DNA from: Acetobacter fallax
GTDB taxonomy: Bacteria; Pseudomonadota; Alphaproteobacteria; Acetobacterales; Acetobacteraceae
Assembly (NCBI RefSeq): GCF_011516735.1
Contig: NZ_WOSX01000013.1
Span: 1-64,000, forward strand
Direction: 5' to 3'
DNA: 64,000 nt
Made by a program: the position numbers and the translations under genes. Under the pieces are notes generated by a model. The model made no database searches. It worked only from the letters and a program-made list of their open reading frames with translations, and had not been told where the DNA came from. This document shows, one piece after another, positions 16,767 through 41,051 of this stretch (the first letter of the stretch is position 1; each line of letters starts with the position of its first letter).

Positions 16767-19298
16767 ATGGCTACCACTCGTAACGTTGTCGTAGTGTGGC
16801 GCTCTGTATCAGCGCCGTTTCCGTCGGGTATCGCTGCCGGCAGAGTATCACGATCCCTGCGTCTGCTGTTTTCCGTTTCATCGCTGGTCGGAATGTATGG
16901 TTTTTCCGGTAGTATTTCCGGTAAGGCTGAAGCGGCGACCGGGCATCACCCGCTGGCGGATGAGCAGGCTTCATCAGCGGTCACTTCCCGGAAGCCTGTC
17001 GCGACAAAGCAATCGGCTCCGCAGAAAAAGCCACCGCAGAATTTTACGGCCTCAGGTGAGGAAACCGTGAAAGTGACAGGGCGCGCCTCCCTGCCGAACG
17101 GCGTGACAAACACGACTCCCGGTGGTGGTATGATGCCGCCTCAGACGATCGCAAAATCACGAAGCGGGCTGACCCGCGATTACATCGCAAAACAGAGCCC
17201 GACGAGTAACGCGGCCGCCCTCGTGGCCAGTCTTCCGGGCGTGGTCTATGCCGGCAATGACCCGCTCGGGACAAATGACGATCAGCAGGGACTGACGGTT
17301 CGCGGACTGAATCAGCAGGAAATCGGTTATCTCTTCGAAGGCATTCCGGCCGCTGCGCCAGTCTATCTTCTGCCCTACACATCAGCCGCGGCCGATAATG
17401 AAAACATTCAGTCCCTGACGCTGACTCAGGGATCTCCGGACACGCGCTCCCCGCTTTACAATGCTGTTGGCGGTGAACTCTCAGAGACAATGCGTGATCC
17501 CGAACATCATTTTGGCGGCCTGATTGACGCCACATACGGTTCGTTCAGTTTGCGGCGCCATTTTATCCGGGTTGATACAGGAGAACTGGGAAACAGCGGC
17601 ATCCGCGGATTTATCTCATTCTCTCATCGTCAGGCAGATGAATGGCGTGGCGTTGGCGGGACAAGGCGCTATCATATTGACATGAAGCTTCTGAAAGAGT
17701 GGGAAGGCGGCAGCCGGGCCTCTTTCGTGATGAGCTATAACGACGCAAAGCAGTATTATCTCAGAGCGCCTACGAAATCGCAGTGGAATCAGTATGGTGT
17801 CAATTTCAACTACAATGACACACCGCTGGGGAGTTCTCCGGCAAATTACTATAAATACGAAGAAAACAGGATGAAGAAATTTATCCTGGGCGCTCCGGTC
17901 AATCTGAAATTCGACCACGGACTGTCACTGGATATCACGCCTTATTTCACCTATTCGTGGGGCTACGATAACGGCGGTTCAACGCTGAGCCGGGACGGCA
18001 GTTATCTTGGTCCCGATCCGGCTGGCCCGTTGCAGGTGGGTGGAACAAACAACAGTATCGTGGCAGCCTCAATCGACACATATACTCTGGCATATTCCGG
18101 CATAAATGCCGTGATGTCCTGGACAAAGGGCCATAATACGCTGACAGGCGGAGCCTGGTACTCCTATTTCGATCAGGCGGAACCGCAGAGCTATCAGGCA
18201 GTCAATCCGGATGGCGGCGTGCCGAGCATGTGGGGTAACAATCCGATTCTGACAGAGAACGGCAGTATTCTGCGAACATATGACATTCACCTTGTCCAGC
18301 AGACCAATGCGCTTTTCATCAACGACACCTACAAGGCGCTGAATGATAAGCTGACAGTCACTGCCGGGTTTAAGGAAGTGATGGTAACCCGTTCACAGAC
18401 AAACAATGTGCCCGGCGTGACCTATGCGACCGGCCAGAGCGCCGCAGAACCGCTGCCGCAATTCATGGCAAGCTACAAAATCACGCCGCACGATCAGATC
18501 TATATCAATGGCACGGCTTCTTTCCGTATGCCGGCCTCCATCATGACCTATGCCGATCGCTACAGTGTTTCCACAGGAAAGCTGTCATCAAAACACGCAT
18601 CAGATATCAATCCTGAATTCGCTATCGGTGAGGAAATTGGTTTCCGTCACAGTGGTTTTGCCAATGTCAACGTGGCCCTGTTCAATTACAACTTCACACA
18701 TCGTCAGCTCAGCACAACAACTTATCAGAACGGCCTGCCGATCTCGGAGTCGATTGATGCTGGCGGTCAGACCATGCGCGGCGCGCAGATCGAGGTCGGA
18801 CTGAAGCGCTGGCATCACTTCAGTCCCTATTTCTCCGGGCAATATGAACACGCCACGATTGACAGTAATCTCCCTGCGGTTGCGTCCGACGGCACGGCAG
18901 TCAATCTGCCGACAAAAGGAAAGCTTGCGGTCAATACACCTGAATTCACGGCCGCTGTCGGTTTGAACTATGATGACGGATCGACGTTTGGCGGGTTCAA
19001 TATGAACTATATCGGCAAACAGTACTCCACCTTCATGAATGATGAATCGATCGGCGGTTACGAGACATTCAACGTCAATCTCGGCTATCGTTTCAGAAAC
19101 TTTGGTTTCGCCAAACATCCCCAGATTCAGCTCAATCTTCTGAATATCGGAAACAATGGCTATCTGTCAGGGACAAGCAGCATCAAGACCAATGCCCGCA
19201 GCATTTCCGTGGCAGGCCACTCAGTGGCCGGATCGTCGCCCCAGTATTATGTCGGCGGCGGTTTCGCAGGTGTGCTCTCTTTCTCAGTGGGTTTCTGA
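16767..19298 (+). CDS. TonB-dependent outer-membrane receptor (island uptake gene)
   Basis: An 843-residue protein. A long N-terminal export region has a hydrophobic core at about 31-50, a TonB box (EETVKVTG, about 98-105) and a plug with GLTVRGLNQQEIGYLFEGIP. The barrel ends in VLSFSVGF with the C-terminal Phe. The start is ATG 16767 behind GGAGGAAT. It heads a forward series: the next start is 24 bases downstream with its own GGAGACG site, and a HAD hydrolase, an MFS carrier and a flavin amine oxidase follow. This context suggests that the receptor brings the island's organic substrate, or a metal complex of it, across the outer membrane (inference). Confidence 0.88.
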   Translation: MATTRNVVVVWRSVSAPFPSGIAAGRVSRSLRLLFSVSSLVGMYGFSGSISGKAEAATGHHPLADEQASSAVTSRKPVATKQSAPQKKPPQNFTASGEETVKVTGRASLPNGVTNTTPGGGMMPPQTIAKSRSGLTRDYIAKQSPTSNAAALVASLPGVVYAGNDPLGTNDDQQGLTVRGLNQQEIGYLFEGIPAAAPVYLLPYTSAAADNENIQSLTLTQGSPDTRSPLYNAVGGELSETMRDPEHHFGGLIDATYGSFSLRRHFIRVDTGELGNSGIRGFISFSHRQADEWRGVGGTRRYHIDMKLLKEWEGGSRASFVMSYNDAKQYYLRAPTKSQWNQYGVNFNYNDTPLGSSPANYYKYEENRMKKFILGAPVNLKFDHGLSLDITPYFTYSWGYDNGGSTLSRDGSYLGPDPAGPLQVGGTNNSIVAASIDTYTLAYSGINAVMSWTKGHNTLTGGAWYSYFDQAEPQSYQAVNPDGGVPSMWGNNPILTENGSILRTYDIHLVQQTNALFINDTYKALNDKLTVTAGFKEVMVTRSQTNNVPGVTYATGQSAAEPLPQFMASYKITPHDQIYINGTASFRMPASIMTYADRYSVSTGKLSSKHASDINPEFAIGEEIGFRHSGFANVNVALFNYNFTHRQLSTTTYQNGLPISESIDAGGQTMRGAQIEVGLKRWHHFSPYFSGQYEHATIDSNLPAVASDGTAVNLPTKGKLAVNTPEFTAAVGLNYDDGSTFGGFNMNYIGKQYSTFMNDESIGGYETFNVNLGYRFRNFGFAKHPQIQLNLLNIGNNGYLSGTSSIKTNARSISVAGHSVAGSSPQYYVGGGFAGVLSFSVGF

Positions 19299-19322
19299 AA
19301 GCATCAAAATCGGAGACGTGTA

Positions 19323-20033
19323 ATGACCAGATTTCCAAAAGCCCTCACTTTCGACGTCGTTGGTACTCTGATCGACTTTGAAACGGGGATGATCCGTGCT
19401 CTGCAGACACTGTGCGACAAAGAAATCGACCGTGAAGCCTTTCTCTCAGCCTACCGTGGAATGCGCGCACGCGGTAAAACGCTGCCATTCCCGGAAGATC
19501 TGAAACCGATTTATCAGACTCTGGCCACTCAGTTCGGACTGCCGGAAGACGAGGCTTACGCGGATGCTTTTGTCCTCGCCGCAAAAGACTGGCCGGCTTT
19601 TCCGGACTCGGTCGAAGCCCTGGAGCGTCTCGGCCAGCATTTTGCGCTGGTGGCCATGACCAATACACAGCGCTGGGCCTTCTCCGGTATGGAGAAGACG
19701 CTCGGACTGCCATTCCATGATTCGATCACGGCGGACGATGCGCTTTGCGAAAAACCGGATACCGCATTTTTCGGTTTCGCACGCGGACGCCTCAGCCGCG
19801 ACGGTATCCTGAAAGACGATATTCTTCACGTCGCACAAAGCCAGTACCATGATATCGGTATCGCAAGAAAGCTGGGCTACACCGTGTGCTGGATCGAACG
19901 CCGCAAAGGGGCAGGCGGCTTTGGCGGAACAATAGCCGTCGAAAACCTCACCACGCCCGATTATCATTTCTCAACACTGAAGGAACTGGCTGACCTTGCG
20001 GATCAGGATGCATTGCTGATGCTGCGATCCTGA
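19323..20033 (+). CDS. HAD-superfamily hydrolase, haloacid dehalogenase type II-like
   Basis: A 236-residue protein. Motif I reads TFDVVGTLID; the second Asp of phosphatase-type HADs is replaced, as in L-2-haloacid dehalogenases. Motif II is AMTNT, a Lys lies in EKPDTAFF, and motif III lies around HVAQSQYHDIGIARKLG. Family members hydrolyse 2-haloacids or small phosphorylated or other acids, and many annotated as dehalogenases have unknown substrates. It sits between the TonB receptor and an MFS carrier. A second, diverged HAD of this type lies at 31923-32591 in the same island. Confidence 0.82.
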   Translation: MTRFPKALTFDVVGTLIDFETGMIRALQTLCDKEIDREAFLSAYRGMRARGKTLPFPEDLKPIYQTLATQFGLPEDEAYADAFVLAAKDWPAFPDSVEALERLGQHFALVAMTNTQRWAFSGMEKTLGLPFHDSITADDALCEKPDTAFFGFARGRLSRDGILKDDILHVAQSQYHDIGIARKLGYTVCWIERRKGAGGFGGTIAVENLTTPDYHFSTLKELADLADQDALLMLRS

Positions 20034-20045
20034 GGAGGGGACGGA

Positions 20046-21374
20046 ATGGAAGTCCGGACACCTGATGAAATACCTCCCTCCGCCTTCCATCTCCGTCTTG
20101 CGCTGATCGCCGGAGGCGGCCCGTTTTGTGACGGCTATATTCTTGGCCTGATCGGCATCGTGCTGCCCTTGCTGGTCCATGATTTTCATCTGAGCGCGGA
20201 TGCGACAGGGCTGATCGGAGCGTCGTCACTTCTGGGTGTGTTCGTGGGCGGCCTGTCAGGCGGCATGATTTCCGACCGCTTCGGGCGCAAACTCCTCTAC
20301 ACCGTCAACATTGTCATGTTTGCGGCCTTCTCTGCAGCTCAGTTTTTCAGCGACAGTTTTACATCCCTGCTCATGTGGCGATTCCTGATCGGCGTCGCTA
20401 TCGGCGCCGATTATCCGATCGCAACCGCCTATGTGACAGAGTTCATGCCCCGCCGCTGGCGAGGCCCCGCCCTGGCCGGGCTGATCACCTTCTGGTGGCT
20501 CGGTTACGTCGCCAGCTTCCTGATCGGTTATGTCCTGATCTCCTGGTATCCCGGAAACTGGAATCTGGTCCTCGGATCGAGTTTTGTTCCTTCCTCCCTG
20601 CTCCTGCTGTGCCGGGCCGGAATGCCGGAATCACCTCTGTGGCTGGCCGGCGCGGGCCGGGTTACGGAAGCGCGGCACATCGTAAAAACGTTCCTGCACA
20701 CGGACGTCTCTTTCGAGGGCGTGAGCACAAACCGCATGCGCGGAGGAGCGGGCCGTGCCCTGTCCATGCTCCTCTCGCCGCGCTATCGGGGCACACTGCT
20801 TTTCGTATGCACTTTCTGGATTCTCCAGAGCGCGCCAGCATTTTCCATTCACACTCTTCAGGCGCAGATTCTGGCGCAGATGCATATGCGCAACCCGCTC
20901 CTGGCCGCATGCGTGGTGACCTGCTTTACGTTTCTGGGTATCCTTCCGGTCTCGTTCGGCCTGATCAACGTCATGGGACGCCGCACGCTGCTGATCTGGT
21001 CGTTCATTCTGGGCGCCGCGGCGCTTCTGTTCATTGCTGCATGGCCAGGTCAGGTCGGCTGGCTCGTCATTGCGGCGTTCATTATCTATTCCGCAGTCGA
21101 AGCAGCTGGGAGTGGTTTGCAGTTCGTCTATCCCAACGAACTGTTCCCGACAGAAATCCGCGGAACGGCCGTGGGCTTCGCGTCATCGGCCAGCCGGCTG
21201 GGAGCCGCACTGGGCACATTTCTCCTGCCGCTCGGTGTGTCGCATTATGGTGTCAGGACAACGCTTTTTGCGGCTTGCACAATCCTGGCAGCCGGGGCCT
21301 TTATCTCGTGGCGATGGGCCCCTGAGACGTCAGGACTCAGCCTTTCCGAGGCCAGCCACATCACACCCTCCTGA
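20046..21374 (+). CDS. MFS transporter (sugar/metabolite:H+ symporter type)
   Basis: A 442-residue, twelve-helix carrier. It has the major-facilitator loop motif DRFGRKLLY between helices 2 and 3, RFLIGVAIGADYPIATAYVTEF in helix 4, and the PNELFPTEIRGTAVG signature of the sugar-porter/AAHS-like branch. It probably moves the island's substrate or a metabolite across the inner membrane. The start lies 12 bases after the HAD stop with GAGGGGACGG upstream, and the amine oxidase follows 20 bases later, so these genes share a transcript. Confidence 0.87.
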   Translation: MEVRTPDEIPPSAFHLRLALIAGGGPFCDGYILGLIGIVLPLLVHDFHLSADATGLIGASSLLGVFVGGLSGGMISDRFGRKLLYTVNIVMFAAFSAAQFFSDSFTSLLMWRFLIGVAIGADYPIATAYVTEFMPRRWRGPALAGLITFWWLGYVASFLIGYVLISWYPGNWNLVLGSSFVPSSLLLLCRAGMPESPLWLAGAGRVTEARHIVKTFLHTDVSFEGVSTNRMRGGAGRALSMLLSPRYRGTLLFVCTFWILQSAPAFSIHTLQAQILAQMHMRNPLLAACVVTCFTFLGILPVSFGLINVMGRRTLLIWSFILGAAALLFIAAWPGQVGWLVIAAFIIYSAVEAAGSGLQFVYPNELFPTEIRGTAVGFASSASRLGAALGTFLLPLGVSHYGVRTTLFAACTILAAGAFISWRWAPETSGLSLSEASHITPS

Positions 21375-21394
21375 CAGGGTTATGGAGTCGTCTT

Positions 21395-22678
21395 ATGAAA
21401 CTCACGTCCTACTGGCTCGATACCGCACCGCTCTTCACCGGCACGCCGCAGGCGGCATTGCCGGGACAGGTGGACGCGGTCATCGCAGGAGGAGGATTCA
21501 GTGGCCTCTCAGCCGCCCTTCGTCTTCGACAGCTCGGGGCGTCCGTCGTGGTCCTGGAACGTGACCGGGTCATCGGTGAAGCATCCGGCCGGAATGGCGG
21601 TCATGTGAATAATGGCCTGGCCGGCAGCTTTTCCGCATCCTGCGCGAAGCTGGGAGAAGAGACTGCCACACGGCTGTATAAGGTGTTTAACAGCGCGGTC
21701 GATACCGTTGAGACCATCACACGGGAAAACAACATCGACTGCGATTTCGCGCGATGTGGCAAGCTGAAGGTCGGCAACCGGCAGGCTCATGCGGCGGCGC
21801 TTCAGGCCGATCATGCGCGGCTGACAGCAGCAGCAGACCCTGAAGCCTGCCTTCTGGACAGAAATCAGGTCAGCGAGGAACTCGGATCAGACCTGTTCAG
21901 CAGCGGCCTGCTCTATCCCGACAGTGCGCGGATGCATATGGGACGTTTCGGAGTGGGTCTGGCGAACGCCGTAATGCATGCTGGCGGCCAGATTTTTGAA
22001 AACACGCCGATGACCGGTATGAAACGGAATGGCAGCTCTTTTGAAATCACGACCCCTCGGGGAAAGATTCTCGCAAAATCAGTGCTGATGGCTACCGGGA
22101 TCAGCCGGAACAGCCCCTCCTGGTTCCGGCAACGGATCATGCCGGTGGGCAGTTTCATTGTCGCGACCGAGCCTATGGATGAGGCAGCCATACGCCGGAT
22201 CATGCCAGGCGGACGGAATGTCGTAACAATGCAGAATATCCATAACTATTTCCGCGCGACAGAAGATCACAGACTTATTTTTGGCGGTCGAGCCAGCTTC
22301 TCCCGCTCGCGCACCACGACAGACATTGCCAGCGGAAACATGCTTCTGGCCGCCATGCGCCGTACATTTGCGGAACTGCCGGATGTGAAAATCGACTATT
22401 GCTGGGGCGGTGACGTCGATATGACCGTCGATCGCCTGCCCCACGCAGGACAGTGGAACGGCGTGTTCTACACCATGGGCTACAGTGGCCACGGAACACA
22501 GATGTCGGTCTATATGGGCCAGCGCATGGCGGAAGCGATGGCAGGGATGCCAGACACTAACCCGCTGGCCGGCAGAGCATGGCAGAAAATCCCCTGTTAT
22601 GGCCTGGCGTCTCACTTCCTGCCCCTGGTGGGGGCCTTTTACCGGGCTAAGGATTTTGTGCAGGAAATGAAGGAATAA
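21395..22678 (+). CDS. FAD-dependent amine oxidoreductase (DadA/PuuB-like)
   Basis: A 427-residue flavoprotein of the DAO family. The N-terminal dinucleotide-binding motif is VIAGGGFSGLSAALRL, followed by EASGRNGGHVNNGL, the form typical of gamma-glutamylputrescine oxidases (PuuB) and related secondary-amine oxidases. The C-terminus holds GYSGHGTQMSVYMGQRMAE. It would oxidise a C-N bond to give an aldehyde or keto acid plus an amine. It is the last gene of the forward series and converges on the 2-hydroxyacid dehydrogenase across a strong hairpin. No gamma-glutamylpolyamine synthetase is present, so a classical Puu pathway is not supported. Confidence 0.85.
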   Translation: MKLTSYWLDTAPLFTGTPQAALPGQVDAVIAGGGFSGLSAALRLRQLGASVVVLERDRVIGEASGRNGGHVNNGLAGSFSASCAKLGEETATRLYKVFNSAVDTVETITRENNIDCDFARCGKLKVGNRQAHAAALQADHARLTAAADPEACLLDRNQVSEELGSDLFSSGLLYPDSARMHMGRFGVGLANAVMHAGGQIFENTPMTGMKRNGSSFEITTPRGKILAKSVLMATGISRNSPSWFRQRIMPVGSFIVATEPMDEAAIRRIMPGGRNVVTMQNIHNYFRATEDHRLIFGGRASFSRSRTTTDIASGNMLLAAMRRTFAELPDVKIDYCWGGDVDMTVDRLPHAGQWNGVFYTMGYSGHGTQMSVYMGQRMAEAMAGMPDTNPLAGRAWQKIPCYGLASHFLPLVGAFYRAKDFVQEMKE

Positions 22679-22742: not shown

Positions 22743-22759
22743 GAAAACTCCATGCCGCT

Positions 22760-23689
22760 TCAGTAACCTTTTGAACGATCGACCGCGGACGGGAAATTGC
22801 GTTCTCCCGCGAGATAACGGCGGACCGTATCGAGAAGAACGCGCCCGGCAGTTTCCGTCTGACTGACACTGGCTACGTGGGGCGTAATCAGCACACGCTG
22901 ATCGTCCCATAGCGGACTCTCCGCAGGCAGCGGCTCAGGGCTGGTCACATCCAGAATGGCCGCACTGAGCTGTCCGCTGTCAAGCGCGGCGATCAGATCG
23001 GGTACGATAAGATGCGCCCCGCGAGCCACGTTGATGATCTGAGCCCCCTTCGGCAGGCGGGAGAACAGGCTGGTATTGAGAATGCCGCGTGTCGCATCCG
23101 TCAGTGGCAGCAGACACACCAGGATTTCCGAAGCCGCCAGAAACGCGTCCAGTTCATCCGGCCCGGCCCATGACGTGACCCCTTCAACCTCATGGCGGGA
23201 CCGGCTCCACCCGCTACAGACGAAACCTTCCCTGGCAAGGGCACTTGCAACAGGCGAGCCAAGCGTTCCCATGCCCATGATACCAACCCGCCTCTGAGAA
23301 GCGATTTTGTTGTGCAGTGGCTTCCACTCATGCTGCCGCTGCTGCCTGACATAGGTCAGAATGTCACGGTGGAGCGTGAGCACCGCCCAGTTGACATATT
23401 CCACCATTCCGTCAGTCAGACCGGGTTCTATCATGCGAATGATCATCACATGATCAGGAATCTGGGTCATATCAAACTGATCGACACCGGCCCCGACAGA
23501 GAAAATTACTTCGAGATTAGGAAATAACGTCAGCAGATCCGCTGGCGGCTGCCATGTTGCAAGGAACCGCACATCCTCAGGATTCCCGGTTTCGGGCCAG
23601 ACATGAAAGGGCAGATCGGGAAGCGCGCTCCGGAAGAGAGGCCCCCAGACATCCGCTCGTTCTTTTGTCGATTTCAGCAGGAATGACAT
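22760..23689 (-). CDS. ghrA: D-2-hydroxyacid dehydrogenase (glyoxylate/hydroxypyruvate reductase A type)
   Basis: A 309-residue NAD(P)-dependent enzyme. The Rossmann motif is GIMGMGTLGSPVA. The catalytic triad of the family is visible as Arg in NVARGAHL, Glu in SPEPLPAESPLW and His in LITPHVASVSQ. It would reduce glyoxylate, hydroxypyruvate or another 2-keto acid to the hydroxy acid. It is the last gene of the Lrp-GNAT-dehydrogenase transcript, starting 45 bases after the GNAT stop. It may dispose of the keto acid released by the island's oxidases (inference). Confidence 0.87.
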   Translation of the reverse strand: MSFLLKSTKERADVWGPLFRSALPDLPFHVWPETGNPEDVRFLATWQPPADLLTLFPNLEVIFSVGAGVDQFDMTQIPDHVMIIRMIEPGLTDGMVEYVNWAVLTLHRDILTYVRQQRQHEWKPLHNKIASQRRVGIMGMGTLGSPVASALAREGFVCSGWSRSRHEVEGVTSWAGPDELDAFLAASEILVCLLPLTDATRGILNTSLFSRLPKGAQIINVARGAHLIVPDLIAALDSGQLSAAILDVTSPEPLPAESPLWDDQRVLITPHVASVSQTETAGRVLLDTVRRYLAGERNFPSAVDRSKGY

Positions 23690-23733: not shown

Positions 23734-24621
23734 TTATCCGAAAGCCTGACCACACAATGCAAAGCAGGTCGCCTCGCCCGGAAGCGGTGGCACACTATCC
23801 GCCCGATCGGTTGTCATCGAAACGACAGTTCCAACACGCAGAAGCCCCCATTCGTCGAGAGCCGTCGCAATAACATCATTCTGCGGCATGTCCACACGCA
23901 GGAACTGACCGGCGCAGATCCCTGCCCAGTAAGCGACCATCGCAAGGGCAAAATTTTCGGACGTGGCCATGACCGGACCGGCAGCCTGCCCCCAGCCAAA
24001 TTTGCGACAGAACGAAAACCCCAGAATACCACTTTCTGAATCGATAATAATACACCGTGCATCAGAAAGAAGGGACTCAATGAGGGACCGGCGGTCCATT
24101 TTTTTCGCTGCAGCGTCCATGGCGCAGAGAGCCTCAAGATCAGCCACCCCGGCAGGGCGTATGCGACAACCTTCCGGCAAAGGGATCAGCGGCGCGGTAG
24201 CAACATTACCCTGGTGCTGTTCGACAACACCCGTGTAGCGAAAGCCGGATTTTTCATAGAGCGGCACGCCGGCCGAGGTCGCGTTAAGATAAAGCGTATA
24301 GCCAGGCAACGCCTGGCGGGCGAGTGCCATAAGCTGTTTGCCAATGCCATGCCCCTGCCATGCCGGACTGACGATAATCATGCCCAGGCAGGCAGCCTGT
24401 CCGCCCCATTTCCACCAGAGGATTGTCCCGATCACGGTACCGTCCTGCGTCGTGGCGACAGTGCCCTGACCCAGATCCAGCATCTGCGACCAGTCGTCCT
24501 GCCGATGCGGCCAGGCCAGATCCTTCGACAACCGGGCCGCCTGAGGAAGATCGTCCGGATGCATGGGCCTGAACGCGATCTGCGTTTCCTGCTGATCTCT
24601 GTAGGTGGCGGTCCCGGTCAA
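23734..24621 (-). CDS. Tandem GNAT acetyltransferase
   Basis: A 295-residue protein with two GNAT-like halves. Domain 1 (about residues 15-135) has the acetyl-CoA motif WQGHGIGKQLMALA and YEKSGFRYTG. Domain 2 (about 150-285) resembles the second domain of YitH-like acetyltransferases but lacks a clear Q/R-x-x-G-x-G loop. The start is taken as TTG 24621, which overlaps the Lrp stop in TTGA and has GGAG upstream; the frame stays open further into lrp, and ATG 24558 would cut into the domain. N-acetylation of an amine or amino acid from the pathway is inferred; an M20 deacylase occurs in the same island. Confidence 0.78.
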   Translation of the reverse strand: MTGTATYRDQQETQIAFRPMHPDDLPQAARLSKDLAWPHRQDDWSQMLDLGQGTVATTQDGTVIGTILWWKWGGQAACLGMIIVSPAWQGHGIGKQLMALARQALPGYTLYLNATSAGVPLYEKSGFRYTGVVEQHQGNVATAPLIPLPEGCRIRPAGVADLEALCAMDAAAKKMDRRSLIESLLSDARCIIIDSESGILGFSFCRKFGWGQAAGPVMATSENFALAMVAYWAGICAGQFLRVDMPQNDVIATALDEWGLLRVGTVVSMTTDRADSVPPLPGEATCFALCGQAFG

Positions 24622-25115
24622 GTGCCATTCTCCGGAAGAATATCCTCGATCAGAAAAGACTGTTTCACAATCGGGGATTTGATAACGATATAACTGAAGT
24701 ATTTCTCGATACCGATGTTCAGATCGAGAAGATTTTCCATGATGGTCTGGTAATGCTCGACATCCCTGGTGATGAATTTCATCAGATAATCGTAGCCACC
24801 GCTGATAAGATGACATTCGACAACCGTATCCAGCTTGCGAACCTGAGCCTCAAACCGTGAAAAATCATCCCGCCGGTGATCGGAGAGCGTGATCTCAGTG
24901 AAAACCGTGAGAACAGACGTGATTTTCCGAACGTCAATCTGCGCACCATATCCGGTAATATACCCGGCTGACTCCAGTCGCTTGACGCGGATCAGGCACG
25001 GACTGGCCGAAAGGCCAACACGGTTGGCCAGTTCGACATTGGTCAGGCGTCCGTTGCGTTGTAGCTGAGTAAGGATTTTCAGATCGATCCTGTCCAGCTT
25101 GGGGGCGGGCTGCAT
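24618..25115 (-). CDS. Lrp/AsnC-family transcriptional regulator
   Basis: A 165-residue protein. The N-terminal AsnC-type helix-turn-helix reads LDRIDLKILTQLQRNGRLTN ... VELANRVGLSASPCLIRVKRLE, and the C-terminal RAM effector domain includes VECHLISGGYDYLMKF. Members sense an amino acid or related small molecule and usually act on adjacent genes. It is the only regulator in the island. It is translationally coupled to the GNAT gene, so it probably controls the surrounding catabolic and transport genes and itself (inference). Confidence 0.92.
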   Translation of the reverse strand: MQPAPKLDRIDLKILTQLQRNGRLTNVELANRVGLSASPCLIRVKRLESAGYITGYGAQIDVRKITSVLTVFTEITLSDHRRDDFSRFEAQVRKLDTVVECHLISGGYDYLMKFITRDVEHYQTIMENLLDLNIGIEKYFSYIVIKSPIVKQSFLIEDILPENGT

Positions 25116-33932: not shown

Positions 33933-35314
33933 GTCACGACACCCCGGATTTTCGCAGGCAGCGGTTTGACCGGAGCAGCACTGCGGATGCGCCCGGCCTC
34001 TTCGATCGTGATTCCTCTCGCCGCGGCAAGAATTTCCGCCCCGGCAAGTCCGCACATACGACCCTGACACCGGCCCATGCCAACCCGGACGAACGCCTTG
34101 GCGCGATTGATTTCCGGGCTGTCCAGCGGCCCCGCCGCGCGACGGATATCCCCCGCCGTCACGTTCTCGCACCGACAGACAACCGTGTCGTCCGGCAGAT
34201 CAGCCGCATGCCGCCACGGCCAGGGGAAGCCAGTCTCAAGACCATGCCGGAACGCGTTCATCGGTTTGAGCGCGGCCCGAAGCCGGGCCATCTCACCCTC
34301 CATGACCGGACGGCCCATATCCTGCAAACAGCGCAGCGCCGCCAGAGCCCCGGCACTTTCAGCCGCATCAGCACCCCGGATGCCCGCGCCGTCACCCGCC
34401 AGATAAACGCCCGCCCGCGATGTCGCGCCATCCCTGTCCGTGACCGGCAGCCACTGGCGCGATGTCGCGTCAAACGCAAAGTCACATTTCAGCAGATCGG
34501 CAAGCTGAGTTTCGGAACGAAGCCCATATCCCATGCCAACAGCATCGCACTCCGTCCGATGCGTCCGACCCCGGCCGTCCTTCCAGACCACAGCCCCGGC
34601 ACAGAGCGTTTCCCCGTCCTGCCGCGCCTCAACCCGCACAGGCCGGATGCCGGACCGAAGCGTGACGCCGGACCGGGCCAGATCGGCCATGTAGCGCAAC
34701 CCCTGCGCCAGAACGGCAGGTCGTCTCCGCAGACCGCCAAGACCACGCAGCCGCGTCGTCAGCGACGATGTATCGAGCACCGCGCGGGGCTTCACGCCAG
34801 CCTGCAAATACTGCCACGCCACCAGATACAGCAGCGGCCCGGTCCCCATGAACACAGGTGCCTGGCCAATTGCGCAGGCCTGCGCCTTCAGGGCAATCTG
34901 AGAGCCGCCGAGAGAAAAAACACCCGGCAACGTCCAGCCCGGGCAGGGCATGATCCGGTCCGTCGCGCCGGACGCAATGATGAGACCATCAAAGCGGAGA
35001 GCATCCGCCTGGCCCCGGCACTCGGTCAGAAGCATGTCGCCCGAAACGCCCCATGCCATCGTTTCGGGCCGATAGTCGACTGATGACCGCAGAGCCTCGA
35101 AGTCAGTGTGCAGAGCCGTCGCGGACGCCGCCGATGCACCATAGAGCTTCGTGGCGGGTCGCGTGAAATTCTTAGGCTGACGACGGTAAATCTGCCCGCC
35201 CTGGCGCTGATTTTCATCCAGAATGACGGGCCGCAGACCAGCGCAGGCCAGGGTCTGCGCGGCACGGGTTCCGGCCGGACCCGCACCGATAACGACGATT
35301 ACGGGCGCGTCCAT
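33929..35314 (-). CDS. FAD/NAD-binding oxidoreductase with BFD-like [2Fe-2S] C-terminus (HcnB/OoxA-like alpha subunit)
   Basis: A 461-residue protein. It has a GAGPAGTRAAQTLACAG dinucleotide site at the N-terminus, a second NAD/FAD domain, and a C-terminal cysteine cluster (VCRCENVTAGDI ... GRCQGRMCG) of the BFD/[2Fe-2S] type. This is the architecture of the alpha subunit of opine oxidases, cyanide synthase and D-hydroxyproline dehydrogenase, which passes electrons between the catalytic subunit and the acceptor. It overlaps the ferredoxin-like gene by 16 bases and the catalytic-subunit gene by four. Confidence 0.88.
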   Translation of the reverse strand: MDAPVIVVIGAGPAGTRAAQTLACAGLRPVILDENQRQGGQIYRRQPKNFTRPATKLYGASAASATALHTDFEALRSSVDYRPETMAWGVSGDMLLTECRGQADALRFDGLIIASGATDRIMPCPGWTLPGVFSLGGSQIALKAQACAIGQAPVFMGTGPLLYLVAWQYLQAGVKPRAVLDTSSLTTRLRGLGGLRRRPAVLAQGLRYMADLARSGVTLRSGIRPVRVEARQDGETLCAGAVVWKDGRGRTHRTECDAVGMGYGLRSETQLADLLKCDFAFDATSRQWLPVTDRDGATSRAGVYLAGDGAGIRGADAAESAGALAALRCLQDMGRPVMEGEMARLRAALKPMNAFRHGLETGFPWPWRHAADLPDDTVVCRCENVTAGDIRRAAGPLDSPEINRAKAFVRVGMGRCQGRMCGLAGAEILAAARGITIEEAGRIRSAAPVKPLPAKIRGVVT

Positions 35315-35598
35315 GGAACTTCCTTTGTGACGATGCGCAAACCCGGTGTCACAGACGTCGAACAGGCGCGGAGTTCATGTCCGTCCTCCGTCCACACGCG
35401 ACAATCCTGACACGCTCCCATCAGACAGAAGCCTGCCCGCGGCATTTTATCAAATTCGTTGAAACGCAGTCGGTCCCCGGCAACGAGCAGAGCCGTGAGA
35501 ATCGTGTCTCCCTCCAGCGCCGTCACCGCATGTCCGTCCACCGTAATGGCAATCTCCGGTCGCCCGGTTTCAGCAACACGCCTGAAAAGTCCTGTCAT
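35299..35598 (-). CDS. (2Fe-2S)-binding small subunit (HcnA/LhpF-like)
   Basis: A 99-residue ferredoxin-fold protein with cysteines in FCLMGACQDCRVW (C-x4-C-x2-C) and a fourth in LRACST, fitting a plant-type [2Fe-2S] site. It matches the gamma subunit of the heterotrimeric amine/opine oxidoreductases in size and position. It is the first of three overlapping genes that should be made in a 1:1:1 ratio. Confidence 0.87.
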   Translation of the reverse strand: MTGLFRRVAETGRPEIAITVDGHAVTALEGDTILTALLVAGDRLRFNEFDKMPRAGFCLMGACQDCRVWTEDGHELRACSTSVTPGLRIVTKEVPWTRP

Positions 35599-35669
35599 GG
35601 ACGCCGGAATCTCCTCGCTTACGTGATGGCGCGGTCATGCGTTTCATGCCGCGCCCTGTTGTTTCCGAT

Positions 35670-37049
35670 TCAGACGATGGCAGCGACAATCTCTTTGTCG
35701 TCCATCAGCGTGTTCAGAACACCCTCAATACGATCGCACAGAATATCTGTTTCTTCCACGGAACAGGTCAGAGGCGGCGCCAGCCCGATAATGTCGTCGC
35801 CAAAGGCCCGGAACAGCACGCCCTGCTCATAGCCAGCCTTCGCCATCTTCTTCGAAATACCAAGGGAAGCCGCTGGCTTTGTTTTGTTCTTCTTGTCGGT
35901 GACAAGCTCGATCCCTGCCAGCATCCCCGCCGAGCGAACATCACCAACCAGCGGATGATCCTTCATCCCCGCAAGACGCGTCGCCAGATGCGCCCCGGCT
36001 TTGACCCCGTTTTCCAGAACGCCGTTCTGATACAGATCCAGCACAGCCAGACCAATCGCGGCACTGACAGGATGCGCACTGTAGGTCTGGCCATGACCGA
36101 TCGCAACGCCCGGCGGCGCCGCGTCCCGGATCGTGCTGTAAACGGCCTCGCTCATGAACACGGCGCCCATCGGGGCATAACCGGAGGTCAGACCTTTCGC
36201 GACGGTCATCATGTCCGGCACCACGCCTTCATGCTCACAGGCGAAAAGCGGACCGGTGCGCCCGAAGCCGGTGATGACCTCATCCGTCACAAACAGAATG
36301 TCCATCTCGCGGCAGGACTCGCGCATGGCCGTCAGCCAGCCACGCGGGGGAACGACAATGCCGCCGGAGCCCTGAACCGGCTCGCAGAAGAATGCAGCCA
36401 CGTGCTCCGGCCCGCCCAGTTCCGCAATCTTCGCCCGCAGGGACGCAACAGACGCGGTGATAATGGCCTCGCCGTCCGGTCCGGCCGGATGGCGATACGG
36501 ATCAGGACTCTCAATGTGGTGCTGCCAGGCCAGCGGCACGTCGGCATCCCGGTGGAAAGCGGCAAGAGCGGTCAGACCGGCCCCCGTATAGGTGCTGCCG
36601 TGATAGCCGCGGGCCAGACCGATCACATGACGTTTGCCCGCAGTGCCCCGCGCATGCTGATAAAACCGGATGAAGCGGAGCGCGCTGTCCACGGCGTCCG
36701 ATCCGCCCTGAGAAAAGAACACCCGGTTCAGATCGCCCGGCGTCACCTCGGCCAGACGGGCCGCAAGCGTGATGGCCGACTCACTCGCAAAGCCGAAATA
36801 GCCCGTGGCGTAGGGCAGTTTCGTCATCTGCTCCGTGGCGGCTTTCACCACGCTGTCCTGACCATAGCCGACATTCACGCACCACAGACCGGCAAACCCG
36901 TCGAGCAGCGTATGGCCATGCATGTCCTTCAGCCACGCCCCCTGACCGGAGCTGAGAAGGCGCGGGCCGTGTTCTTCCTGATCGCGCCATGAAGAAACCG
37001 GGTGAATAAGGTGGGCGCGATCAAGTCTGGCAAGAGTCTCGGGGGTCAT
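35670..37049 (-). CDS. Class III omega-aminotransferase (polyamine/omega-amino acid:pyruvate type)
   Basis: A 459-residue PLP enzyme. It has the glycine-rich phosphate-cup sequence FFSQGGSDAVDSALRFIRFY, the conserved Asp in LFVTDEVITGFGRTG and the PLP Lys in TVAKGLTSGYAPMG. It resembles SpuC/taurine-pyruvate type transaminases, which convert a terminal amine to an aldehyde with pyruvate as acceptor. It is the first gene of the reverse operon, 71 bases before the oxidase trio. The aldehyde it makes could be used by either aldehyde dehydrogenase of the island. Confidence 0.9.
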   Translation of the reverse strand: MTPETLARLDRAHLIHPVSSWRDQEEHGPRLLSSGQGAWLKDMHGHTLLDGFAGLWCVNVGYGQDSVVKAATEQMTKLPYATGYFGFASESAITLAARLAEVTPGDLNRVFFSQGGSDAVDSALRFIRFYQHARGTAGKRHVIGLARGYHGSTYTGAGLTALAAFHRDADVPLAWQHHIESPDPYRHPAGPDGEAIITASVASLRAKIAELGGPEHVAAFFCEPVQGSGGIVVPPRGWLTAMRESCREMDILFVTDEVITGFGRTGPLFACEHEGVVPDMMTVAKGLTSGYAPMGAVFMSEAVYSTIRDAAPPGVAIGHGQTYSAHPVSAAIGLAVLDLYQNGVLENGVKAGAHLATRLAGMKDHPLVGDVRSAGMLAGIELVTDKKNKTKPAASLGISKKMAKAGYEQGVLFRAFGDDIIGLAPPLTCSVEETDILCDRIEGVLNTLMDDKEIVAAIV

Positions 37050-37110
37050 GGCGCTCTGCAGTCCGCTGTGGTGTCTGGTTTCTGAGCTATGAGCGGAACC
37101 GTGGAGAATA

Positions 37111-37164
37111 TGTCACCGGAAAGGCCGGACGCAAAAGCAGATTGTGCCGTTCTGCCCGGTGACA
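37111..37164. promoter_or_regulatory. Inverted repeat in the divergent control region
   Basis: TGTCACCGG (37111-37119) and CCGGTGACA (37156-37164) form a perfect 9-base inverted repeat with centres 45 bases apart. It lies in the 238-base region between the divergent aminotransferase operon and the aldehyde dehydrogenase operon. Spaced operators bound by one dimer each would suit coordinated control of both. The binding protein is unknown; the Lrp-type regulator of the island is a candidate. Confidence 0.45.
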
Positions 37165-37287
37165 ACGAAAGGGTGCGTCAAATCGCTTTTCATCTCATTT
37201 TACATTTGCGCTGACCGGGGCAATGGGAAAAAGATACGGTCCCGCAAGAAACAGACTGGCTTCCGACCAGCCGCAGGAGAATGTGTT

Positions 37288-38766
37288 GTGACGGATATCA
37301 GCTTCAGCCCGGCGGAAATACAGCTCCCATCCGGACATTTCCTGGGGGGCAGACTGATCACGGGCGCAGAAGATATTGCCGTCATCAGTCCGGGAAGCGG
37401 AGAAGTCATCGCCAGCCTGCCCGAGGCCGGAGAAGGACTGGTCGACGAGGCCGTCCGGCTGGCGGCAAAAGTGCAGCAGGAAAGCGGCTGGAGCACCTGC
37501 GCGCCGCGTGAACGGGCGCGCGTGCTGCGTCGCTGGGCCGATCTGGTCGACCAGCACACAGTGGAACTGGCACGGCTGGAAACCGTCTGCTCGACACGCC
37601 CGATCGCGGAGACGCTCGCCTGGGACATCCCCTTCCTTGCCGAAGGAATCAGATTCTTCGCCGAATGTTGTGACAAAACCGGCGGAGAGGTCGCCGCAAC
37701 GTCCTCAGATCTGCTGGGGATGACGATCTGTGAACCCTACGGCGTCACCGGTGCGATCGCCCCGTGGAATTTTCCGCTCGTCATGGCAAGCTGGAAAGTC
37801 GTGCCGTCCCTCGCCGCCGGCAACGGAACGGTTCTGAAGCCCTCCGAGATGACGCCGTTTTCCGTCGTGCGTCTGGCCGAACTCGCCTGCGAGGCAGGTC
37901 TCCCCGCCGGCCTGTTCAACGTCGTTCAGGGAACCGGCCTGATCACGGGAGAACCACTCTGCCGCCACCCCCTCATTGGCAAGCTGAGCTTCACAGGCTC
38001 AACACGCACCGGCATTGCGGTCATGAAAGCCGCCGCCGAGAGCGGACCAAAACCGGTCACGCTGGAACTGGGCGGCAAAAGCCCGCAACTCGTCTTCGGT
38101 GACATCCCCTCCGTAGCTGACGTGGCCGACCGCATCTTCCGCGCCTTCACCGGCAATGCCGGCCAGGTCTGCGTCACCGGCTCCCGGCTGATCGTGCACC
38201 GCTCCGTCGCCGACCAGCTTACGGAAGCCCTGATCGAACGATGCGCCCGTCCGCGTGCGCTCGCGCCATGGAACGGTGAGGCCGCCTGGTCCCCGATCAT
38301 CTCAGCGCCCCAGGCGGACCGCATCCTGAAAATCGTTTCCGACAGCCAGACCGCAGGCGCGGAAAGCCTGGCCACCTGCGCACGGATGGACAACGGCAAC
38401 GGTGGCGTCTTCCTCTCGCCCGGTATCCTCTCGGTCTCCGATACGGACTGCCCCGCCTGGCAGGAAGAAATCTTCGGCCCCGTCCTGTCCGTCCGCGTCT
38501 TCGATGAGGACGATGAAGCCTTCGCTCTGGCGCAGCACCCCGTCTACGGGCTGGCAGCAGGCGTCCACACAGCAAGCATGAGCCGGGTGATGCGCGCAAT
38601 CCGCACGCTGAAAGCCGGAACGGTCTGGATCAACCGCTACGGACGGTCATCCGATTTCGTCATCCCGACAGGCGGCTACGGTGGATCGGGCATCGGCAAG
38701 GATCTTGGTCGTCAGGCTTTTGAAGCGAACCTGCGCCTCAAAAGCGTGCTGATGGCGGCAGGCTGA
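37288..38766 (+). CDS. NAD(P)-dependent aldehyde dehydrogenase (PuuC/betaine-aldehyde type)
   Basis: A 492-residue protein. It shows IAPWNFPLVMASWKVVPSLA, the cofactor motif FTGSTRTG, catalytic Glu in LELGGKSP and catalytic Cys in NAGQVCVTGSR, with GGYGGSGIGKDLG near the C-terminus. GTG 37288 is preferred because GCAGGAGA precedes it by seven bases; the frame is open to 37144 without a better site. It heads a three-gene forward operon and would oxidise the aldehyde from the transaminase or an amine oxidase (inference). Confidence 0.88.
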   Translation: MTDISFSPAEIQLPSGHFLGGRLITGAEDIAVISPGSGEVIASLPEAGEGLVDEAVRLAAKVQQESGWSTCAPRERARVLRRWADLVDQHTVELARLETVCSTRPIAETLAWDIPFLAEGIRFFAECCDKTGGEVAATSSDLLGMTICEPYGVTGAIAPWNFPLVMASWKVVPSLAAGNGTVLKPSEMTPFSVVRLAELACEAGLPAGLFNVVQGTGLITGEPLCRHPLIGKLSFTGSTRTGIAVMKAAAESGPKPVTLELGGKSPQLVFGDIPSVADVADRIFRAFTGNAGQVCVTGSRLIVHRSVADQLTEALIERCARPRALAPWNGEAAWSPIISAPQADRILKIVSDSQTAGAESLATCARMDNGNGGVFLSPGILSVSDTDCPAWQEEIFGPVLSVRVFDEDDEAFALAQHPVYGLAAGVHTASMSRVMRAIRTLKAGTVWINRYGRSSDFVIPTGGYGGSGIGKDLGRQAFEANLRLKSVLMAAG

Positions 38767-38770
38767 GCGT

Positions 38771-39937
38771 ATGATGACAACACCCTCGCAGAGCGATATC
38801 CCGTTTCTCACAGATCTGAGACACGATCTTCATGCCCACCCGGAACTGCGTTTCGAGGAAAAGCGCACCGCCGGCCTGGTCGCCTCCCGCCTGCGCAGTC
38901 TCGGCTACACACCACAGACAGGCGTCGCGGGAACCGGCGTGGTCGCCACCCTGGACACCGGACGTCCGGGACCAGCCATCCTGCTCCGCGCGGATATGGA
39001 CGCTCTCCCGATCAGGGAAACCGGAACCACCTCATGGGCCTCCCGCAACGAAGGAATCATGCACGCCTGCGGACATGACGGCCACACCGTCATGCTCCTT
39101 GGCGCAGCCGAAACCCTCGCCGCCGACCCGCCGGAGCGCGGCATCGTGCATTTCGTCTTCCAGCCCGCTGAAGAAGGCGGTGCCGGTGCGAAAGTGATGA
39201 TTGATGAAGGACTGTTCGAGCGTTTCCCGACGCAGTTCTGTTTCGGCCTGCATAACTGGCCCGGTCTCGAAGCCGGACGGCTGGGCGTCCGCACAGGTCC
39301 GGTCATGGCCGGAGGATGGCGGTTCCGTATCGTCATCACAGGAAAAGGCTCACACGCCGCCCAGCCACATCTCGGAACAGACCCGCTGACAATCGGCGCC
39401 GCTCTGGTGCAGGAAGCCCAACTGCTCGTCGCCCGACGCACGGACCCGATGGTCGCCGCCGTCGTGTCCTTCTGCATTTTCGAGGCAGGCACAACGGATA
39501 ACATCCTGCCACAGACCGCAACGCTGGCAGGCACCCTGCGCGCGCTCGATCCACGCGTCCTCACCGACCTGAAGGCCGGACTCACCCGCCTCTGCACAGG
39601 TCTGGCACAAGCCCACGGCACCGCCATTTCGGTGGACTTTCATCAGCCCTATCCTGTGACCGTCAACGCAGCGGACGCCGCCGATCTCGCCCGCGCCGCC
39701 ATGCTGAAACTCATGGAACAGGACGGCGGCCCCGCGCCCGAACTGGACATCGTGCCAAGCCTGGCCTCGGAAGATTTCGGCTTCATGCTGGAGCGGAAAG
39801 CAGGCGCCTACGCCATGATCGGCAACGGTGACTCCGCCCGGCTCCACGCCCCCGACTACGATTTTAACGACGCCATCATCCCCCGTGGCATCCGCTACTG
39901 GCACACGCTCGCACAGAGTTGCGCCACGGCACTGTGA
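38771..39937 (+). CDS. M20-family amidohydrolase (hippurate/N-acyl amino acid hydrolase type)
   Basis: A 388-residue metallohydrolase with the family metal-site motifs: HAHPELRFEEKRTA, RADMDALPI, HACGHDGHTVMLLG and FQPAEEGGAG, plus SEDFGFML near the C-terminus. Family members remove acyl groups from N-acyl amino acids, hippurate or indole conjugates. It starts four bases after the aldehyde dehydrogenase stop. Its presence suggests that an N-acylated compound, either the substrate or a product of the tandem GNAT, is part of the pathway. Confidence 0.9.
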   Translation: MMTTPSQSDIPFLTDLRHDLHAHPELRFEEKRTAGLVASRLRSLGYTPQTGVAGTGVVATLDTGRPGPAILLRADMDALPIRETGTTSWASRNEGIMHACGHDGHTVMLLGAAETLAADPPERGIVHFVFQPAEEGGAGAKVMIDEGLFERFPTQFCFGLHNWPGLEAGRLGVRTGPVMAGGWRFRIVITGKGSHAAQPHLGTDPLTIGAALVQEAQLLVARRTDPMVAAVVSFCIFEAGTTDNILPQTATLAGTLRALDPRVLTDLKAGLTRLCTGLAQAHGTAISVDFHQPYPVTVNAADAADLARAAMLKLMEQDGGPAPELDIVPSLASEDFGFMLERKAGAYAMIGNGDSARLHAPDYDFNDAIIPRGIRYWHTLAQSCATAL

Positions 39938-39980
39938 CATCCCCTGATGAATTTCAGGCCTGAAATGGAGACGTTCCTTC

Positions 39981-41051
39981 ATGAAATCCTATGATATCGC
40001 CGTCATCCCCGGAGACGGCATCGGCACTGAAGTGATGCCGGAGGCGCTGCACGTCCTTGAGCGCACAGCGGAGCTGTGCGGTTTTGGCCTGAAATTTCGC
40101 ACTTATGACTGGAGCTGCGAAACATGGCTCAAAACAGGAAAAATGATGCCGGATGACGGCATGAGCCAGCTCTCGCAGCATGACTCCATCCTGCTCGGCG
40201 CCGTCGGATTTCCCTCCGTCCCTGATCATATTTCATTGTGGGGCCTGCTGATTCCCATCCGCAGGGAGTTCCATCAATACGTCAATCTCCGCCCCGTCCG
40301 CCTGCTGCCCGGCATCCCCTGTCCGCTCGCCAATAAAAAGCCCGGCGATATCGATTTCTGGATCGTGCGCGAGAACTGCGAAGGCGAATATTCGCAGATC
40401 GGTGGCGTTTTCGGAGAAGGAACCCCCGCCGAAGGCGCGATGCAGACTGCCGTTTTCACACGCTACGGCACCGACAGAATTCTGCGCTACGCCTTCGACT
40501 ACGCCCGCAAACTCGGCCGCCCGCATGTAACATCCGCCACGAAATCAAATGGCCTGTTCCATTCGATGCCTTACTGGGACAGTCGGTTTGCGGATATCGG
40601 CAAAGACTACCCGGAAGTCCGGACAGACCAGTATCACATCGACATTCTCGCCGCGCGTTTCGTCATGTCGCCGGAACGCTTCGATGTCGTGGTCGGCAGC
40701 AATCTCTTCGGTGATATCCTCTCGGACCTCGGCCCGGGCGTGACAGGAACAATCGCCGTCGCACCGTCCGCCAACATCAACCCGGAACGGAAATATCCTT
40801 CCATGTTCGAGCCGGTTCACGGCTCAGCCCCCGATATCGCCGGGCAGTTCATCGCCAATCCGATCGGTCAGATCTGGGCCGCCTCCATGATGATGGACCA
40901 TCTGGGTGAGCCGGAAGCCGCAAACCTCATTATGAAAGCGATTGAAACAGTCCTGGACCGCCCCGATGCCCCGCGAACACCGGATATCGGTGGAACCGCA
41001 GGCACAAAAGAGCTTGGCGCCGCAATCAAAGCGCAGATCGGCAAAGACTGA
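39981..41051 (+). CDS. ttuC: Tartrate/D-malate dehydrogenase (isopropylmalate dehydrogenase family)
   Basis: A 356-residue NAD-dependent beta-decarboxylating dehydrogenase. IPGDGIGTEVMPEAL opens the protein; WGLLIPIRREFHQYVNLRPVR is the substrate-loop form of the TtuC/DmlA group, not LeuB. The catalytic segments VRENCEGEYSQIG and DVVVGSNLFGDILSDL and the NAD site PVHGSAPDIAG follow. It would oxidise D-malate or tartrate to pyruvate- or oxaloglycolate-type products. The gene ends the forward operon; a hairpin repeat follows. Confidence 0.85.
   Translation: MKSYDIAVIPGDGIGTEVMPEALHVLERTAELCGFGLKFRTYDWSCETWLKTGKMMPDDGMSQLSQHDSILLGAVGFPSVPDHISLWGLLIPIRREFHQYVNLRPVRLLPGIPCPLANKKPGDIDFWIVRENCEGEYSQIGGVFGEGTPAEGAMQTAVFTRYGTDRILRYAFDYARKLGRPHVTSATKSNGLFHSMPYWDSRFADIGKDYPEVRTDQYHIDILAARFVMSPERFDVVVGSNLFGDILSDLGPGVTGTIAVAPSANINPERKYPSMFEPVHGSAPDIAGQFIANPIGQIWAASMMMDHLGEPEAANLIMKAIETVLDRPDAPRTPDIGGTAGTKELGAAIKAQIGKD

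Follow-up and report, generated by a model that had tools for sequence, protein, structure and literature searches.

What compound does Acetobacter fallax take up and degrade with the 20 genes that lie between positions 16767 and 41051 of contig NZ_WOSX01000013.1 (assembly GCF_011516735.1)? The stretch of DNA analyzed here, hereafter the window, comprises the first 64,000 nt of this contig. An earlier note on the window had described a single unit for the catabolism and transport of a secondary amine, possibly N-acylated, following neither the Puu putrescine route nor the hydroxyproline route. Gene identities were checked by family searches (Pfam and NCBIfam/TIGRFAM, with curated cut-offs) and by sequence searches of the PDB. 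All the gene types named in the note were found, and its general proposal is supported. Here we argue that the substrate probably contains an azetidine ring. Judging from genomes, the chances are about even that the island serves to import and break down plant azetidine chelators, of which nicotianamine and/or the (deoxy)mugineic acids are the likeliest.

Two proteins related to azetidine hydrolases

Two hydrolases of the HAD fold provide the clue to a strained ring. The nearest PDB relative of HAD1 (19323..20033, +) is 3smv, an L-azetidine-2-carboxylate (AZC) hydrolase (140.6 bits, 37.6% identity); we take 3smv and 8ywo to be the Pseudomonas A2C enzyme. HAD2 (31923..32591, -) is more distant, with 81 bits to 3smv (28.6% identity) and 96 bits to 8hp5. 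Both proteins had been described earlier as type II HADs. This description suits HAD2, which exceeds the type II cut-off (TIGR01428, 171.6 bits vs. 125.4), whereas HAD1 falls below it (107 of 125 bits) and instead passes the HAD-IA cut-off.

An AlphaFold model of HAD2 (mean pLDDT 91.9, built with 14 sequences) was searched with Foldseek, and the best match by E-value was 8ywo, an AZC hydrolase soaked in its substrate. The same list includes 8hp7, titled as trapped with (2R)-4-amino-2-hydroxybutanoic acid. Judging from the title of 8hp7, the enzyme of 8hp5-8hp7, which is labeled haloacid dehalogenase, handles the same product as AZC hydrolase. The Asp, Ser/Thr-Asn, and Lys motifs are retained in both HAD1, which has Thr-Asn, and HAD2. 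The motif Asp is the residue mutated in 8yvw and 8hp6, and the motif Lys is the one mutated in 8hp7.

We use the label AzcH for close homologs of AZC hydrolase. In an unrooted tree, HAD1 lies on the AzcH side within its own long-branched clade (support 99/99), and HAD2 lies outside the clade of solved AZC hydrolases in a clade of its own (100/100); the branches leading to both proteins were flagged as long. HAD1 and HAD2 are presumed to be azetidine ring-opening hydrolases, perhaps acting on N-substituted rings.

A rearrangeable gene set

A collection based on GTDB was scanned with the HcnC-like FAD oxidase subunit of the island (32778..33932, -; PF01266, soxB/ThiO-like). From the 199 relatives detected, the 80 best loci (L031-L110) were taken, with no selection for neighboring genes. 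The closest relatives belong to A. conturbans and A. oeni (94%). Ten core genes other than Hcn were then counted with identity limits chosen gene by gene. The counts are underestimates because 12 of the 80 loci span less than 15 kb. HAD2 (at least 50% identity) is present in 56 loci, and at least three of the ten core genes are likewise present in 56. The flavin amine oxidase DAO1 occurs in 44 loci, the family 5 solute-binding protein (SBP5) in 39, the Lrp regulator in 38, the GhrA-like dehydrogenase in 32, the second aldehyde dehydrogenase (ALDH2) in 30, the GNAT acetyltransferase in 28, the tartrate/D-malate dehydrogenase (TDH) in 27, the class III aminotransferase (AT3) in 26, and an aldehyde dehydrogenase resembling succinate-semialdehyde dehydrogenase (SSADH) in 21. 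Because this set recurs among loci chosen by the HcnC-like protein alone, chance is excluded, and the island is almost certainly one catabolic unit.

The entire order from TDH to GhrA is kept in six of nine Acetobacter loci (L031, L033, and L035-L038). Among the others, L032 has no TDH match, L034 is a short stretch, and in L041 (A. musti) the genes are shuffled in the way also seen in Gluconacetobacter and Komagataeibacter. Parts of the set appear in different orders in Pseudomonas, Burkholderiales, and Rhizobiales. The gene set is rearrangeable, extends across alpha-, beta-, and gammaproteobacteria, and is sometimes plasmid-borne. Four plasmid matches among 30 listed were opened (H1, H2, H3, and H9); H2 and H9 carry the cluster, H1 has no annotation, and H3 is considered below as L162.

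With HAD2 as the starting point, orthologs were found in 18 of 150 Acetobacteraceae genomes (at least 58% identity) and in 28 of 398 genomes of a phylum sample (at least 57%), with the window genome included in each count. Twenty-two HAD2-centered loci, some of them short, were assembled from 14 of the 18 and eight of the 28. DAO1 is present in 19, GNAT in 16, SBP5 in 11, GhrA and ALDH2 in nine each, Lrp in eight, and TDH in five. HAD1 is also counted in 11, a biased figure because five of the eight phylum-sample loci were picked for a nearby HAD1-like gene. Other DAO-type oxidases occur in 12 of the 22. These counts suggest that HAD2, DAO1, and GNAT form the core, with HcnABC as one among several second oxidases.

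In eight of ten HAD2-bearing Acetobacter genomes, a HAD1-like gene is located about 12.6 kb from HAD2. In a ninth the gene is on a different contig, and none was seen in the tenth (G166). Besides the window genome, 11 phylum-sample genomes carry HAD1-like genes (36-38% identical to AzcH) within about 10 kb of HAD2.

Several relatives deserve mention in their own right. A plasmid of the root nodule isolate Paraburkholderia sprentiae (pl1WSM5005, L161:584-25492) carries most of the cluster; a PuuR-like regulator and an additional ABC importer of the amino-acid type are encoded there as well. A HAD gene stands with an ABC importer ATPase and an FAD oxidase on Caballeronia plasmid pNK83 (L164:17501-23813, annotated HAD-IA) and in L066:13296-16200 (HAD1 kind, 48%), as if each HAD were paired with its own oxidase and importer. 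Six Pseudomonas loci (L102, L103, L104, L107, L108, and L110) hold an HcnC homolog (57-58%) without HcnA or HcnB matches and without the cluster.

A close azetidine hydrolase homolog accompanies some clusters

AzcH occurs in six of the 80 HcnC loci (L045, L049, L051, L062, L071, and L072), with 48-59% identity to 3smv. In two Komagataeibacter loci, L045 and L049, it accompanies a cluster with HAD2. In two loci from alphaproteobacterial metagenome-assembled genomes (MAGs; L062 and L072) and on a short contig from a gammaproteobacterial MAG (L071), the partners are HcnBC or HcnABC and GhrA with, variously, SBP5-ABC, GNAT, and Lrp. The gene lies between GhrA and Lrp in both L071 and L072. HAD2 was not seen in L051, L062, L071, or L072, four of the six AzcH-bearing loci, as if AzcH replaced it there. 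Elsewhere, genome G135 holds all 20 genes and AzcH in about 31 kb (L122 and L123; the TonB gene extends past the fetched end), and in G102 AzcH adjoins an Lrp gene whose product is 65% identical to that of the window (L131).

The window genome (G000; 4.2 Mb in 162 contigs) has a full-length AzcH on contig C12 (45709-46434), with 60.1% identity to 3smv (326 bits) and 66.4% to 8hp5 (356 bits). Its neighbors encode succinate dehydrogenase subunits, glucose-6-phosphate dehydrogenase, an FAD protein, an S15 peptidase, and a TonB receptor, and include no ortholog of an island gene.

Across 49 genomes of the genus Acetobacter, AzcH (at least 80% identity) is found in five of ten with HAD2 vs. none of 39 without it (Fisher p = 1.3e-4, or 6.5e-4 without the window genome). 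These p-values overstate the significance because species are not independent. In the phylum sample, AzcH (at least 50%) is found in four of 28 genomes with HAD2 vs. five of 370 without it (p = 0.002, or 0.013 without the window genome). Among the five Acetobacter genes, that of G178 is split in two frames. AzcH lies on the cluster contig at a greater distance in G162 and G155, and on a different contig in G000 and G178.

A degenerate AzcH-like protein, HAD3, was observed in nine of 22 Pseudomonas loci (e.g., L098:17884-18558, L086:17067-17750, and L109:16634-17308). Several of its motif residues have been lost. The gene adjoins Lrp, in the same slot that AzcH occupies in L072. HAD3 is possibly a decayed azetidine hydrolase or one repurposed, perhaps as a sensor.

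A candidate pathway

Nicotianamine occurs generally in plants. Many of the named cluster carriers are presumably plant-associated, and some are not obviously so. An N-substituted azetidine is a likelier substrate than free AZC because the latter would require no peptide-type importer and no pair of amine oxidases, and nicotianamine and the mugineic acids are the obvious N-substituted azetidines of plants. Known natural azetidines include plant nicotianamine, in which three aminocarboxypropyl units are joined and the terminal one is cyclized to AZC, and some microbial products (PMC11794875).

Import of such a chelator would depend on the TonB receptor together with the SBP5 ABC system. The flavin amine oxidases HcnABC and DAO1 would then cut the C-N bonds that join the three aminobutyrate units. 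HAD hydrolases would open the azetidine ring, so that free L-AZC would yield (2R)-4-amino-2-hydroxybutanoate; homology points to this role for AzcH, and for HAD1 and HAD2 it is presumed. Enzyme families and stereochemistry suggest that the aminotransferase would form (R)-malic semialdehyde, SSADH would form D-malate, and TDH would release pyruvate and CO2. In what is the most tentative step, the remaining amino unit might leave as an aldehyde of the aspartate-semialdehyde type to be oxidized by ALDH2 and, after acetylation by GNAT, a deacylase might release aspartate. Lrp would regulate the unit. The order of the reactions is inferred, as are the parts assigned to GNAT, GhrA, and the deacylase and the compounds on which HAD1 and HAD2 would act.

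The downstream enzymes fit the scheme in several respects. The tartrate/D-malate dehydrogenase family oxidizes D-malate as well as tartrate. The otherwise odd presence of TDH would be explained because (2R)-4-amino-2-hydroxybutanoate would pass through the transaminase and SSADH to D-malate. In the Pseudomonas locus L098, the transaminase scores above the cut-off for gamma-aminobutyrate (GABA) transaminase, and the deacylase scores above that for acetylornithine deacetylase. As described in PMC8016842, AZC is used by way of 2-hydroxy-4-aminobutyrate and GABA-type steps, and is detoxified by N-acetylation, with a HAD hydrolase and an acetyltransferase among the published parts.

Deacylases of differing families (M20, ArgE, and AstE/AspA) recur across the clusters. 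The window M20 protein has relatives (at least 60%) in 14 of the 15 loci from acetic acid bacteria, and 16 of the 22 Pseudomonas loci encode a relative of the L098-type acetylornithine deacetylase (at least 60%). On each of two Burkholderiales plasmids (L161 and L164), SSADH and TDH have an M14-type protein as a neighbor. Because different deacylase families appear in otherwise similar clusters, an N-acyl amino acid intermediate is suggested.

Weighing the alternatives

A number of observations count against an azetidine chelator as the substrate. The identity of HAD2 to 3smv is low, cis-epoxysuccinate hydrolases rank third in its fold search, and although other L-2-haloacid dehalogenases appear from rank 18, the TM-scores do not separate the groups (0.80-0.85 for AZC hydrolases vs. 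0.72-0.84 for haloacid dehalogenases). AzcH is missing from 74 of the 80 HcnC loci and from the window island itself. It directly precedes HcnABC in the MAG locus L051, yet none of the ten core partners is present there, and in L071 (5392-6114) Gly replaces the nucleophile Asp, possibly an assembly error in this MAG. Among the five Acetobacter AzcH genes, that of G181, at about 4.3 kb from TonB, is the only one for which a position within 10 kb of the cluster was established. No ortholog of HAD2, DAO1, or Hcn was found in the 17-20 kb surrounding eight other AzcH genes of the phylum sample. Two of these eight stand-alone loci do have an SSADH-like aldehyde dehydrogenase within about 2.5 kb of AzcH, a point in favor of the proposal.

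Uptake and regulation also give little encouragement. The TonB receptor has no sequence relative in the PDB that would point to a ligand class, and SBP5 is only weakly CntA-like (34.8 bits vs. a cut-off of 800) and is not clearly of the metallophore type. A search of the window for Fur boxes gave none above shuffled expectation. The two highest-scoring matches (14/19, at 4137 and 2794) are not in the island, where the top score is 13 (27516 and 23429), and 30 single-base shuffles reach 12-14.

The strongest competitor, which we consider unlikely though of appreciable probability, is a catabolic unit for a different secondary amine, opine-like or derived from a polyamine, such as an N-carboxyalkyl amino acid or N-acetylated diamine, with the HADs acting on a bond outside any azetidine. 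The peptide-type importer, two amine oxidases, omega/GABA transaminase, aldehyde dehydrogenases, and deacylases would suit any such amine, HcnABC-like oxidases include opine oxidases, and the L161 cluster contains the PuuR-like regulator. The Burkholderia pyrrocinia plasmid L162, one of the three annotated plasmids, even carries a similar set (HcnABC, M20, an aldehyde dehydrogenase, and oxidases) without an annotated HAD, a further point against an azetidine, as is the scarcity of AzcH. Such an amine leaves unexplained the kinship of both HADs to azetidine and epoxide hydrolases, the AZC hydrolase homologs in six of 80 loci, the co-occurrence at the level of the genus, and the D-malate dehydrogenase. 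Opine-like, the term used in the earlier note, was a fair guess, as nicotianamine structurally resembles the opine metallophores; what it overlooked was the kinship of the HADs to azetidine hydrolases.

It is improbable that the island serves mainly for the detoxification and use of free L-AZC, a toxic proline analog. The HAD hydrolase, acetyltransferase, and GABA-type transamination match published parts of AZC detoxification and use (PMC8016842), but a peptide-type importer and two flavin amine oxidases would be unneeded, and AzcH in the window genome is located outside the island. Still less credible is the suggestion that HAD2 resembles a cis-epoxysuccinate hydrolase and supplies L-tartrate to TDH, with the amine genes forming a separate neighboring function. 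These hydrolases do stand just below AZC hydrolase in the HAD2 fold search, and TDH does belong to the tartrate dehydrogenase family, yet HAD2 keeps company with DAO1 in 19 of 22 HAD2-centered loci and with TDH in only five of these loci, some of which are short.

The earlier note had proposed that separate occurrence of the blocks in relatives would speak against a single unit, and some separation was found. At the identity limits used, all ten core partners are absent from 17 of the 80 HcnC loci, among them the six Pseudomonas loci mentioned above that also have no HcnA or HcnB match. An HcnC ortholog is present in only two of the 22 HAD2-centered loci (three if the adjoining stretch L122 of G135 is counted), which again weighs against our proposal. 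HAD2 and the HcnC ortholog are about 3 kb apart in G103 and about 250 kb apart in G011. That several unrelated operons lie side by side by happenstance, with parts rearranged between genera, is nevertheless very improbable, as chance does not bring the same families together in differing orders across alpha-, beta-, and gammaproteobacteria.

We return to plant azetidine chelators. It is a little short of an even bet that alpha-, beta-, and gammaproteobacteria, of which many are presumably plant-associated, import and eat these compounds, splitting them into azetidine and aminobutyrate pieces that end as D-malate or pyruvate and aspartate, and that HAD1 and HAD2 are new ring-opening hydrolases for N-substituted azetidines.

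Genes of the island

The 20 genes form three co-directional runs (four on the plus strand, 13 on the minus strand, and three on the plus strand) with short gaps within runs. The first, TonB-HAD1-MFS-DAO1, occupies 16767-22678. It begins with a TonB-dependent receptor, presumably for outer-membrane uptake (16767..19298, +; Plug domain PF07715), whose orthologs adjoin HAD1 in L123 (partial at the stretch end), L125, and L149. An MFS carrier follows HAD1 (20046..21374, +; Sugar_tr/MFS_1), for which the best NCBIfam model is aromatic acid/H+ symport, below its cut-off. DAO1 (21395..22678, +; PF01266) is an FAD amine oxidase resembling AmaA and aminophosphonate oxidases, with the AmaA and Phn_aa_oxid models below cut-off.

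The second run extends over thirteen genes from AT3 down to GhrA (37049-22760). AT3 (35670..37049, -; PF00202) scores 730.5 bits vs. 729 for PRK05965, and its top PDB relatives include polyamine:pyruvate and 4-aminobutyrate transaminases. The HcnA-like [2Fe-2S] protein (35299..35598, -; Fer2_4) and the HcnB-like flavoprotein with a BFD [2Fe-2S] domain (33929..35314, -; Pyr_redox_2 and Fer2_BFD) precede HcnC and HAD2. The importer consists of SBP5 (30273..31841, -; PF00496), a DppB/NikB-type permease (29314..30276, -; PF00528 and PF19300), a DppC/NikC-type permease (28502..29317, -; PF00528), and a fused double ATPase (26676..28502, -; two ABC_tran and oligo_HPY). The SSADH-like enzyme (25192..26652, -; start uncertain) scores slightly below the TIGR01780 cut-off (638.6 bits vs. 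646.35). Next are the Lrp/AsnC regulator (24618..25115, -; HTH_24 and AsnC_trans_reg) and the tandem GNAT (23734..24600, -; PF13508 and PF18014), whose start is uncertain and whose open frame extends to 24816, overlapping Lrp. At E 0.01, GNAT gave eight weak PDB matches, none named as an AZC acetyltransferase. The GhrA-like 2-hydroxyacid dehydrogenase (22760..23689, -; PF02826; NF012013 below cut-off) ends the run.

The third run (about 37288-41051) comprises ALDH2 (37288..38766, +; PF00171; start uncertain), an M20 aminoacylase (38771..39937, +; PF01546), and the decarboxylating TDH (39981..41051, +; TIGR02089, 529.5 bits vs. 470.4), a relative of 3flk, a tartrate dehydrogenase/decarboxylase (461.8 bits). 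A search for an operator common to promoter regions gave nothing convincing. Upstream of the island, a 545-aa open frame (13555-15192, -) has no Pfam match and may not be a gene. Genes for X-Pro dipeptidyl-peptidase (S15) lie a few kilobases from the island (10954-12954, +) and from the separate AzcH (L121:2495-4438, +), probably by coincidence.

Significance for phytosiderophore turnover

The destruction of grass phytosiderophores by some soil and root bacteria is relevant to the iron nutrition of plants. According to a 2021 study, Pseudomonas fluorescens SBW25 degraded phytosiderophores, strains of P. putida reportedly did not, and the taxa and genes responsible were stated as unknown (PMC7786132). 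The same study describes four iron-regulated SBW25 genes (encoding an OmpW porin, an OB-domain transport protein, a monooxygenase, and an unannotated protein); these were rejected as counterparts of the cluster because the types described are not those of the cluster. Titles and the beginnings of abstracts in the open-licence literature yielded no description of the cluster or of genes for nicotianamine or mugineic acid degradation, an absence that carries little weight, and the accessible part of PMC8079746 contains nothing on either. A named, widely conserved candidate cluster makes the question of phytosiderophore degradation genes directly testable. If our proposal is correct, it would provide a function for gene sets annotated merely as "haloacid dehalogenase type II" and "FAD-binding oxidoreductase" (e.g., in L161), and new ring-opening hydrolases for strained N-heterocycles.

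Comparison with known systems

Several known systems share parts with the island. The Puu putrescine pathway and hydroxyproline catabolism were rejected in agreement with the earlier note, as no glutamine-synthetase-like protein (PuuA) and no epimerase of the proline racemase family is found among the 20 island proteins scanned, the genome beyond the island not having been searched. Ectoine degradation (Doe) is similar in its Lrp/AsnC regulator, class III transaminase, SSADH-like aldehyde dehydrogenase, and DoeB2-like M20 deacylase. It was also rejected, because the island M20 protein reaches only 325 of the 550 bits required for DoeB2 and no M24-type ectoine hydrolase (DoeA) was seen within the same scope. 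Staphylopine-type Cnt uptake likewise uses an SBP5-type ABC importer, but the island SBP5 fails the CntA cut-off by a wide margin and the island proteins include no opine dehydrogenase.

Opine catabolism by octopine and nopaline oxidases is closer, in that a multipart flavin/[2Fe-2S] oxidase is combined with an importer for a secondary amine. We know of no opine pathway that includes HAD hydrolases, SSADH, D-malate dehydrogenase, or a deacylase. The AZC route, to our knowledge, includes no amine oxidases and no peptide-type importer, and its hydrolase 3smv is 38% identical to HAD1 and 29% identical to HAD2. HAD1 and HAD2, in which the Asp, Ser/Thr-Asn, and Lys motifs are kept, nonetheless share the HAD fold with the AZC hydrolases (3smv/8ywo and 8hp5-8hp7) and Aspergillus AzhA. 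The likeness extends to the close homolog AzcH in the window genome and in some clusters, and to downstream steps of the GABA type.

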